DNA of 64,000 bases from Pedobacter zeaxanthinifaciens (GTDB taxonomy: Bacteria > Bacteroidota > Bacteroidia > Sphingobacteriales > Sphingobacteriaceae): assembly GCF_003313335.1 (NCBI RefSeq), contig NZ_QMHP01000005.1:62001-126000 (forward strand). Direction: 5' to 3'. The position numbers and the translations under genes were made by a program. Below the pieces are notes generated by a model. It had not been told where the DNA came from and made no database searches. It saw nothing but the letters and a program-made list of their open reading frames with translations. Shown one piece after another: positions 2 through 59,275 of this stretch (positions within the stretch are counted from its first letter, which is position 1; every line of letters begins with the position of its first letter).

Positions 2-1066
2 GGCGAAGGTAATCCTATCCATTTGCCTAACAGGGCCGATGCATTTGTAGGAACCGCTGCCGTACAAGAGTTAGTTTACGGTGGTGGCAAGCTGAAATAT
101 GCGCAAGAATCTACTAAGCTTTTAAAGGAAATTGCGCTTTTGGATGCCGACAAAAACAAAGAGGAAGTGAGTTATGCGGTTGTAAACAGCTATTTCTCTC
201 TGTACAAATTGTTGCAAAGCAAAAAAGTAGTGGCGCAAAACTTAAGCGCTATCTCAAAGCAACTTAAACAAGCACAGCGTTTTTATGAGCAAGGCTTGGT
301 AACTAAAAATGATGTATTGAGGTTCCAATTGCAACAGGCCAACATTTCCCTAACGGATATGGAAATTGAGAACAATAGAAAAATCATCAACTATAATCTT
401 GATATCCTTTTAGGACTGCCAGAAAACACTGCTATTGAACTGAAAGGCGCTGATGATGCATTGCCTCAATTGTCATCATTTGATGCTTATTTAAATGCTG
501 CGTTAACCAACCGACAAGAATTGCAACAGCTTAACTTGAGGCATCAAACGGCGGATTACAATATCAAATCAATTAAGGCTAACACCAGACCAACGGTAGG
601 TTTAGGCGCTAACTTGTACTACGTAAATCCAAGCGGGAACTTTATTCCTAGCAACCAACAATTTGTAATGCCAATTACTTTGGGCGCTACTATTTCGTGG
701 AACATTGGTTCGTTGTGGACCAATAAAAATAAGGTGGCAGAGGCTAAAGTACAGCAATTGGAAATAGATACGCAGAAAGACATCTTTACTGACAATGTAA
801 AAACCGAACTGAATAAAAATTATCAGACCTACCAACTAGCTGTCCAAAAAATAGATGTATTGGAAACTTCTATAGCTCAGGCTACTGAAAATGATAGATT
901 GTTGGAATCGAAATACCAAAACAACATTGCTTCTGCTATTGATAGGATTGACGCAGAAACCTTGCTATATCAAGCTAAAATTAATTTGGAGTTAGCTAAA
1001 GCTGATGCCAAACTAGCTTACTACACTTTATTAAAATCAACAGGAAAAATATCTCAAAATAACTAA
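2..1066 (+). CDS. TolC-family outer membrane efflux protein (5' partial)
   Basis: Outer-membrane channel of a tripartite efflux pump. The reading frame is open from base 2, so the N-terminus, including any signal peptide, lies before the window; the TTG at 23 is an internal codon. Seen: about 355 residues of the TolC fold, with long Gln/Leu/Asn-rich helices (coiled coil around the AQRFYEQGLVTKNDVLRF segment, then EIENNRKIINYNLDILLGL) alternating with short strand-forming segments near IKANTRPTVGLGANLYYV. The stop is 7 bases before the membrane fusion protein, so the two are surely co-transcribed. The EmrA/EmrB-like partners downstream make drug or fatty-acid-type efflux the likely role; the substrate is unknown. 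Confidence 0.93.
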   Translation, partial: GEGNPIHLPNRADAFVGTAAVQELVYGGGKLKYAQESTKLLKEIALLDADKNKEEVSYAVVNSYFSLYKLLQSKKVVAQNLSAISKQLKQAQRFYEQGLVTKNDVLRFQLQQANISLTDMEIENNRKIINYNLDILLGLPENTAIELKGADDALPQLSSFDAYLNAALTNRQELQQLNLRHQTADYNIKSIKANTRPTVGLGANLYYVNPSGNFIPSNQQFVMPITLGATISWNIGSLWTNKNKVAEAKVQQLEIDTQKDIFTDNVKTELNKNYQTYQLAVQKIDVLETSIAQATENDRLLESKYQNNIASAIDRIDAETLLYQAKINLELAKADAKLAYYTLLKSTGKISQNN

Positions 1067-27650: not shown

Positions 27651-27676
27651 AAAAGCAGCTTTAATAAGCTGCTTTT
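27651..27676 (-). terminator. Terminator of tRNA-Ala transcript
   Basis: Perfect 10-bp stem AAAAGCAGCT / AGCTGCTTTT with a six-base loop; on minus it is followed by T-rich sequence. It lies just downstream of the tRNA 3' end. Confidence 0.85.
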
Positions 27677-27681
27677 GTAAG

Positions 27682-27755
27682 TGGAGAATGCCGGATTCGA
27701 ACCGGCCACCTCTTGCCTGCCAGGCAAGCGCTCTAGCCAAATGAGCTAATCCCCC
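27682..27755 (-). tRNA. tRNA-Ala (anticodon GGC)
   Basis: 74 nt, folds as a complete cloverleaf on the minus strand. Acceptor GGGGGAT pairs with ATTCTCC (two G-U), D-arm GCTC...GAGC, anticodon arm CTTGC CTGGCAG GCAAG with anticodon GGC for codon GCC, T-arm GCCGG TTCGAAT CCGGC, discriminator A. CCA is not encoded. It is the last element of a transcript that first passes through four tRNA-like repeats. Confidence 0.95.
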
Positions 27756-28039
27756 AAATCTTTAATGCCTATCCCGGCCACTTTCCCGAATCAGTCGGGA
27801 CACATAGCCAAATGAGCTAATCCCCCGTATTTTTAATGCCTATCCCGGCCACCTTCCCGAATCAGTCGGGACGCCTAGCCAAATGAGCTAATCCCCCAAA
27901 TCTTTAATGCCTATCACGGCCGCCTTCCCGAATCAGTCGGGACTCCTAGCCAAATGAGCTAATCCCCCAAATCTTTAATGCCTATCCCGGCCACCTTCCC
28001 GAATCAGTCGGGACGCCTACCCAAATGAGCTAATCCCCC
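27756..28039 (-). repeat. Four exact-length 71-bp tandem tRNA-like repeats
   Basis: Copies at 27756-27826, 27827-27897, 27898-27968 and 27969-28039, differing by a few bases only. Read on minus, each begins with GGGGGATTAGCTCATTTGGC, the acceptor 5' strand and D-arm of the adjacent tRNA-Ala, then a 17-nt hairpin TCCCGACTGATTCGGGA (5-bp stem, 7-nt loop) where the anticodon arm should be, then AGGTGGCCGG (the T-arm 5' side), after which the T-loop is shortened and the acceptor 3' strand is missing. They cannot be functional tRNAs. Each copy has the same 71-base length, and the array abuts the tRNA with no spacer. Confidence 0.9.
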
Positions 28040-28048
28040 ATGTGCGAG

Positions 28049-28079
28049 CAAAAGTAAGTATTTTTGATAATTCTGCAAG
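28049..28079 (-). promoter_or_regulatory. Promoter of the tRNA-like array and tRNA-Ala
   Basis: On minus: CTTG (28076-28079), 19 bases, TACTTTTG (28049-28056), an exact -7 match. The predicted transcription start, near 28042, is a few bases before the first tRNA-like repeat, so the array is transcribed ahead of the real tRNA. Between 28080 and 28231 I see only a long imperfect hairpin (GTTAAGC 28132-28138 with GCTTAAC 28165-28171). Confidence 0.6.
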
Positions 28080-51899: not shown

Positions 51900-52400
51900 T
51901 TTTGTCATTACGAGCAGTCTCCTTATCATTCCGAGCAAAGTTCCTTGTCATTCCGAGCAAAGCGAGGAATCTATTAACCACATACTTAGATTTCTCGTAG
52001 CCTCGAAATGACAAAAGGCAACAGCTATTAGTTCTAAGCTCCTTGTCATTTATAACAAAGTTCCCTGTCATTCCGAGCAAAGCGAGGAATCTATTAACCA
52101 CATGCTTAGATTTCTCGTAGCCTCGAAATGACAAAAGGCAACAGCTATTATTTCTAAGCCTCTTGTCTTTCAGAGCAAAGCTCCTAGTCATTCTCAGCAA
52201 AGCTTTGTCATTCCGAGCAAAAGCGAGGAATCTATTAACCCCATGCTTAGATTTCTCGTAACCTCGAAATGACAAAAGGCACCATCTATATTTCTAAGCT
52301 CATTGTCATTCCGAGCAAAAGCGAGGAATCTATTAATCGCATTTAATTAGATTTCTCGTAGCCTCGAAATGACAAAAGGTAGCCTCGAAATGACAAAAGA
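51900..52400. repeat. Tandem array of REP-like hairpin units
   Basis: Four units of the Bacteroidota intergenic element: left arm CATTCCGAGCAAAGCGAGGA, then a short linker, then right arm AGATTTCTCGTAGCCTCGAA, which is its imperfect inverted copy. Units start near 51951, 52071, 52210 and 52307, the first two separated by exactly 120 bases. Partial arms (CATTCCGAGCAAAG, CATTTATAACAAAG, CTTTCAGAGCAAAG) fill the gaps. It fills most of the 51846-52405 gap, with no gene. Confidence 0.85.
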
Positions 52401-58872: not shown

Positions 58873-58925
58873 TGCTAATTTTATTTTTTTCTTTTATGAA
58901 AAGCGCCTACGTTGCAGTAATTCAA

Positions 58926-59093
58926 TTCAGTCCCGCTATTCGTTTCATCTTTTTGTTGTCACCAGCTTTCATTTCTGTCGTGCTGAGTTTATCGAAGCAT
59001 CTAATCAAAAACCAATCCTTCGACTACTTGTCCCGACAATTCGGGAAGCTCAGGATGACACCAACAAAAAGGATTTCACTTCTATCGGGTTTA
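58926..59093. repeat. Mosaic repeat with nested repeat
   Basis: Frame ends TTCAGTCCCGCTATTCGTTT and CACTTCTATCGGGTTTA match those of the copy at 56236-56304. Inside is a second element with arms TGTCGTGCTGAGTTTATCGA (58976) and, inverted, TTCGGGAAGCTCAGGATGAC (59040), plus ATCTTTTTGTTG/CAACAAAAAGGAT flanks. The 58869-59275 gap holds only this and AT-rich DNA; no gene. Confidence 0.8.
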
Positions 59094-59275
59094 TCGTACA
59101 ATATTTCTGCTTTCTACGCAAATTGTAAAGTACAAAAATGCAAAGACAGAAGCATTATTGTTTGATACTTCTGTCATTTGTAAAGTCTTTACCTTGGGTT
59201 AACAATTTATTTAGATTCTTCGCTGAGCTAAGAATAATAGCCGAGTACATCTAATTGATGAAGCTGGGAAAAAAC

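Follow-up and report, generated by a model that had tools for sequence, protein, structure and literature searches.

Several kinds of repeat come close to the arrangement considered here, among them tandem tRNA genes and pseudogenes, the REP/RAYT system, the Flavo-1 elements and the rickettsial palindromic elements. The rickettsial elements, like other short dispersed repeats of stable RNA genes, are palindromes found at sites that can accommodate additional RNA structure, as may apply here also, but they differ from the units described below in their sequences and in the phyla that carry them, and we know of no tandem pseudo-tRNA arrays among them. The motifs NHIH and YIHNNP are those of Bacteroidetes TnpAREP subclass 2.6 (PMC6006769). 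The Flavo-1 matches of Flavobacterium psychrophilum are without strand preference and are often untranscribed (PMC9723704), a pattern that fits a repeat process operating at the level of DNA.

The array described here lies on the minus strand of a 64,000-nt stretch of the Pedobacter zeaxanthinifaciens genome (the window), and its features are collected in Table 1. As claimed in the original prediction, four tandem copies of 71 bp precede a tRNA-Ala(GGC) gene; ARAGORN and Rfam recognize the gene, and TRF reports a 71-bp period with 4.3 copies, 92% match, no indels and a score of 546. Read along the minus strand, a TTG, in keeping with the consensus -33 element, is followed after 19 nt by the -7 box TACTTTTG, after a further 9 nt by the four units, and then by the tRNA gene and its terminator. 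The same prediction placed the sole good promoter upstream of the array, and from 28150 to the tRNA there is indeed no TANNTTTG box other than TACTTTTG. A sigma-70 promoter scan returned no match at the locus, an empty result that is expected in this phylum.

Table 1. Features of the pseudo-tRNA array and of the Flavo-1 element in the window.
Feature	Position	Strand	Basis or remark
Intrinsic terminator 3' of tRNA-Ala(GGC)	27651-27676	minus	
Intact tRNA-Ala(GGC) gene	27682-27755	minus	ARAGORN; Rfam RF00005, 62.1 bits
Pseudo-tRNA unit 4, nearest the tRNA	27756-27826	minus	TRF; predicted rod fold
TCCCGACTGATTCGGGA hairpin replacing the anticodon arm, unit 4	27784-27800	minus	dispersed palindrome family
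Pseudo-tRNA unit 3	27827-27897	minus	TRF; predicted rod fold
TCCCGACTGATTCGGGA hairpin, unit 3	27855-27871	minus	
Pseudo-tRNA unit 2	27898-27968	minus	TRF; predicted rod fold
TCCCGACTGATTCGGGA hairpin, unit 2	27926-27942	minus	
Pseudo-tRNA unit 1, adjoining the promoter	27969-28039	minus	TRF; predicted rod fold
TCCCGACTGATTCGGGA hairpin, unit 1	27997-28013	minus	
Bacteroidota -7 promoter box TACTTTTG (consensus TANNTTTG)	28049-28056	minus	9 nt upstream of unit 1
TTG of the presumed -33 element	28076-28078	minus	sequence; 19 nt upstream of the -7 box
Flavo-1 element, terminal loop carrying a 101-nt insert	58925-59096	minus	
Second copy of the palindrome family in the window	59031-59046	minus	in the 101-nt insert of the Flavo-1 element

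The four units differ from one another at 4-6 of 71 positions. Nucleotides 1-22 are those of tRNA-Ala(GGC), apart from one change in unit 1, and the units retain the 5' acceptor strand and the 5' part of the D-arm. The whole D-arm had been said to be kept; in every unit, however, the 3' strand of this arm, for which the tRNA has GAGC, is changed and one base shorter. The anticodon arm CTTGCCTGGCAGGCAAG has been swapped in each for TCCCGACTGATTCGGGA, which is identical in all four and has a G on its 5' side and an AGGT-like sequence on its 3' side, a context that recurs in most arrays, and both the T-arm and the acceptor 3' strand are altered relative to the tRNA. This hairpin occurs four times in the window at up to 2 mismatches, against 0.02 occurrences expected. 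The units consist solely of tRNA-derived sequence, hairpin and short spacer, and no integrase or element remnant was found between the copies. They give no RF00005 match even at E<=10, nor a match to any known Rfam family, and because they lack a tRNA score they are missed by tRNA annotation pipelines. A D-arm without a full cloverleaf had been foreseen, and the cloverleaf is indeed absent from the predicted fold, but what takes its place is a single rod with the TCCCGA hairpin at its tip rather than a truncated cloverleaf. Judged by their sequence, the units are a tRNA-derived tandem repeat or pseudogene of the adjacent tRNA-Ala.

The original prediction implied a hairpin peculiar to the tRNA locus, and in this it was mistaken. 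The hairpin belongs to a dispersed TCCCG-CGGGA palindrome family whose members also form the tips of terminators, of seven Flavo-1 matches and, in a SAM riboswitch, of the P4 arm. The form TCCCGA-N2-9-TCGGGA has 57 copies in the P. zeaxanthinifaciens genome and its reversed control none; among the genome palindromes listed, no further copy of the exact hairpin of this array was found. Congeners carry either 10-150 palindromes or about 0-8. The flanks of the palindromes pair with each other over 2.9 bp, compared with 1.6 bp when flanks are re-paired and a maximum of 2.3 bp in 500 such trials, and at three loci (L105, L149 and L160) one palindrome is nested within another.

Several individual loci illustrate the settings of this and similar repeats. 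The P4 arm of the SAM riboswitch carries a TCCCGAACGTTCGGGA palindrome (L199, G000:C20:317900-318500, 207-320, plus strand). The 101-nt insert of the Flavo-1 element in the window is a hairpin repeat, TGTCATCCTGAGC...TCGAAGGAT, with a TCCCGA palindrome at its tip, giving hairpins nested three deep. At another locus (L196, G000:C21:173000-175500, approximately 800-1500), tandem units of about 124 bp, which are unrelated to tRNA, include six that are tipped by TCCCGATAAATCGGGA or near forms of it. Tandem TTGTCATTCCGAGCAAAGCGAGGAATCT-type repeats, a common hairpin repeat, were reported by TRF at 51902-52399 of the window.

Arrays of this kind recur well beyond the present locus. Tandem copies were present in four of 41 genomes (P. 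zeaxanthinifaciens and 40 relatives), one of the four representing another family of the same class, and an array is present in Pedobacter sp. Leaf41 (L140). An exact-pattern scan of some 85,000 species recovered the same layout in 114 stretches, assigned by their record titles to Bacteroidota (110), Gastranaerophilales (3) and Kiritimatiellia (1); the pattern required the first 14 nt to be present twice without a mismatch, so that their conservation is a search artefact and not evidence. The Bacteroidota concerned include Flavobacterium, Algoriphagus, Maribacter, Mucilaginibacter, Pedobacter, Pontibacter, Chitinophaga, Saprospiraceae and Bacteroidales, among others. Array counts are minima, many arrays lying at contig ends; one (L106) is situated in a finished chromosome. 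In the 120 arrays that were parsed, an intact tRNA-Ala(GGC) terminates 98, and a perfect TCCCG-CGGGA hairpin occupies the anticodon-arm position in 73, the D-arm in 16 and a position further downstream in two, while the hairpin is damaged in 14 and is another one, or none, in 15. Relatives were expected to share a conserved unit in variable copy number if it had a maintained role, and they do so, with 1-8 units per array. Absence from close relatives, which had been held to count against such a role, is also observed in part: of the 80 congeners that have the tRNA type searched for, only 6 carry tandem copies, and the distribution is similarly sporadic in another family, at 9 of the 46 genomes that contain the sequence.

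The pattern extends to other tRNA genes and admits other hairpins. At tRNA-Pro(TGG) and tRNA-Asp(GTC) genes the units stand downstream and keep the 3' half and the terminator. Alongside a tRNA-Met(CAT) gene (L232, G005:C2:77300-78000, 230-480) there are three 78-bp units in which the palindrome occupies the D-arm and the anticodon stem gives way to a GCTC-GAAA-GAGC hairpin. The palindrome site thus varies, being sometimes the D-loop and sometimes both arms. Some arrays have no TCCCG palindrome at all, including a Pedobacter type with GAGCG-CTT-CGCTC and those of Gastranaerophilales, and the palindrome is therefore not the sole route to such a unit. The three Gastranaerophilales arrays (L053, L082 and L108) have a tRNA-Ala 5' copy upstream and other strong hairpins, TTGAAAAAC-TTG-GTTTTTCAA, and are perhaps an independent case.

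The descent of the units from their own tRNA can be followed in the array collection. Across nt 15-27, 56 arrays show 22 mismatches to their own tRNAs, compared with a mean of 103 and a minimum of 72 when they are re-paired with the tRNAs of other arrays. The difference between units and tRNA, 4% ahead of the hairpin, grows to 12% immediately behind it and reaches 38% in the T-arm and 68% in the 3' strand of the acceptor, and one array (L051) contains a full-length unit that scores exactly at the tRNA cut-off, an intermediate. Neighbouring units diverge least in the hairpin (2.6%), more in the tRNA-derived 5' part (4.7%) and most in the distal part (10.7%). Of 89 arrays, 43 have a promoter box no more than 60 nt from the first unit (5.8 expected; median distance 11 nt upstream) and only one has a box inside the last unit, and a congener (G017) has the homologous promoter immediately before the tRNA with no tandem units; from this placement it follows that the units were inserted between promoter and tRNA, and the simplest way is for the tRNA to have been duplicated in tandem. 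One of the ideas advanced at the outset, that of a recent amplification from the tRNA, is thus supported.

The reading that we prefer, with somewhat more confidence than doubt, is that the units are tandem tRNA-Ala pseudogenes in the leader of the real tRNA gene, their anticodon arm exchanged for a palindrome, and that they are a tolerated repeat. A tandem tRNA duplicate would be released from selection as the downstream copy does the work, and its anticodon arm could then be replaced by the TCCCG-CGGGA palindrome, acting as a dispersed hairpin-capping element of Bacteroidota. The swapped anticodon arm would be a special case within the palindrome family, since no tRNA copy other than a redundant one can sustain it. 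The 3' half would subsequently be altered to pair with the 5' half, converting a cloverleaf into a rod-shaped hairpin, and the unit would be copied by slippage or unequal exchange while staying like its own tRNA. Transcription would begin just upstream of unit 1, so that the units would form part of the leader RNA, and RNase P, in making the tRNA 5' end, would most likely remove that leader; the array would be tolerated because of this trimming.

A tentative alternative, to which we give clearly less weight, is that the units are maintained rod RNAs that act within the tRNA transcript, and it draws on the same promoter position immediately upstream of unit 1 and on several signs of constraint. 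Pairs 6 and 7 of the hairpin, the outer variable pairs of its stem, covary, being paired in 71/73 and 64/73 cases against 50 and 34 after shuffles that preserve column make-up and not phylogeny, a result that DNA palindromes would produce likewise. Pairing of the distal part-D region reaches 9.35 pairs, against 2.42 when the 3' half of the array's own tRNA is grafted in (higher in 53/58) and 5.3 in dinucleotide shuffles, and since it exceeds both, neither inheritance nor chance accounts for the refolding of the cloverleaf into a rod. The loops of the hairpins favour purines on the tRNA strand (35 versus 10 distinct loops), independent hairpin solutions occur in the Pedobacter-type arrays and Gastranaerophilales, and divergence is lower in the 5' part and the hairpin than in the distal part, which looks like constraint. 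The contention that the copies are not in random decay is supported by the tracking of the own tRNA, the stem covariation and the non-chance refolding.

Each of these signs can also be explained at the DNA level. Exchange with the tRNA and among units could give the low divergence, template-switch correction of quasi-palindromes could build rods without selection, and oriented insertion is a further such process; the arrays behind the constraint statistics are moreover not phylogenetically independent. A maintained role sits poorly with the lack of an array in most relatives, with a copy number that varies from 1 to 8, and with a hairpin drawn from a genome-wide palindrome family that is unlinked to tRNAs. 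Tolerated, palindrome-driven repeats are accordingly ranked first and a maintained leader function second, because the signs of constraint have DNA-level readings, the arrays are non-independent and most relatives are without one. Transcription pacing, shielding of the nascent 5' end, holding of RNase P or of modification enzymes, and release of small RNAs are roles that a maintained leader might conceivably play; the decoys for processing or modification enzymes and the dosage device suggested earlier find no support in the present data. It is slightly more doubtful still that the arrays constitute a new class of maintained RNA, namely tRNA-derived, hairpin-capped rods in Bacteroidota tRNA leaders that are remade from each lineage's tRNA to adjust tRNA synthesis or maturation. 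Competition of the units for the 3' acceptor strand of the tRNA was considered and dropped: whole-transcript folds favour mispairing, but an intact tRNA copy predicts the same and a shuffled unit disturbs the fold too, so that the effect is an artefact of equilibrium folding.

The tolerated repeat would itself be given a mover if a Y1 (IS200-like/RAYT) transposase carried the TCCCG-CGGGA palindrome, with tRNA duplicates among its targets, an unlikely account, narrower than the preferred explanation and not fully exclusive of it. Within the genus, Y1_Tnp is present in 65/68 genomes with at least 10 palindromes and in 4/52 with fewer (120 genomes, treated without phylogenetic correction), P. zeaxanthinifaciens encodes a protein with both NHIH and YIHNNP, the subclass 2.6 motifs (PMC6006769), and palindromes are nested within palindromes. 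A second family, in contrast, shows no association (25/28 versus 29/36, p=0.49), one of its genomes, 96% complete, has 213 palindromes and zero Y1_Tnp, and all nine Y1 genes inspected, three of them in P. zeaxanthinifaciens, are free of TCCCGA palindromes to a distance of about 1.5 kb. A Y1 transposase as the mover of the palindrome is thus not established. The RAYT-type Y1 transposase of P. zeaxanthinifaciens is followed by TTGGCG-GGGA-CGCCAA-type hairpins and by no TCCCGA palindromes (L214, G000:C25:31500-34500, 1178-1684), and these hairpins are perhaps its true cognate repeat. A search of viral contigs for relatives of the P. zeaxanthinifaciens Y1 protein gave one weak match.

It is highly improbable that the units are 5' copies left by an element that entered the anticodon arm and duplicated the tRNA 5' half; such a scar is suggested by an 8.77-kb tyrosine-integrase element at the same tRNA-Ala in G017, where the promoter and first 43 nt are duplicated, but it is disfavoured by a copy spacing in the genus of 71-106 bp (G017 excepted), by a promoter on the first unit only, and by the retention of altered 3' tRNA parts and the existence of full-length units, which point to tRNA duplication. 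The G017 element (L216, G017:C3:161500-173000) sits at the anticodon arm and brings a new promoter and 5' half, whereas integrated elements at tRNAs usually supply the 3' end. Units serving as integrase decoys were also rejected, as they lack the anticodon arm, where the duplicated tRNA part ends in G017.

If the preferred reading of tolerated, palindrome-capped pseudogenes is correct, one dispersed palindrome reshapes structured RNAs throughout a phylum, from terminators, Flavo-1 elements and a riboswitch arm to pseudo-tRNAs in tRNA transcripts, and the arrays would offer a clear system for the entry of palindromes into hairpin loops, the co-evolution of tRNA copies and the RNA load of tRNA leaders. 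The ingredients, tRNA duplicates and dispersed palindromes, are of known kinds; their combination in phylum-wide, arm-swapped pseudo-tRNA arrays was not found in the open-access papers searched, and these arrays apparently represent a recurrent, undescribed kind of repeat. They resemble tandem tRNA genes and pseudogenes (RF00005) in their 5'-half sequence, their place behind a tRNA promoter, their tRNA-sized period and their intermediates at the cut-off, but differ in having neither anticodon nor acceptor closure, a swapped arm, a rod fold and no tRNA score. The palindrome shares with REP/RAYT (TnpAREP subclass 2.6, PMC6006769) its short, dispersed form and its being present or nearly absent by genome; unlike REP palindromes, it does not flank Y1 genes, its association with them is unreplicated, and its sites are the tips of hairpins and copies of tRNAs. 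The long Bacteroidota hairpins known as Flavo-1 elements (RF01705) bear this palindrome too, either at the tip or in a loop insert, whereas the units are distinguished from them by their derivation from tRNA and their tandem position at tRNA genes.
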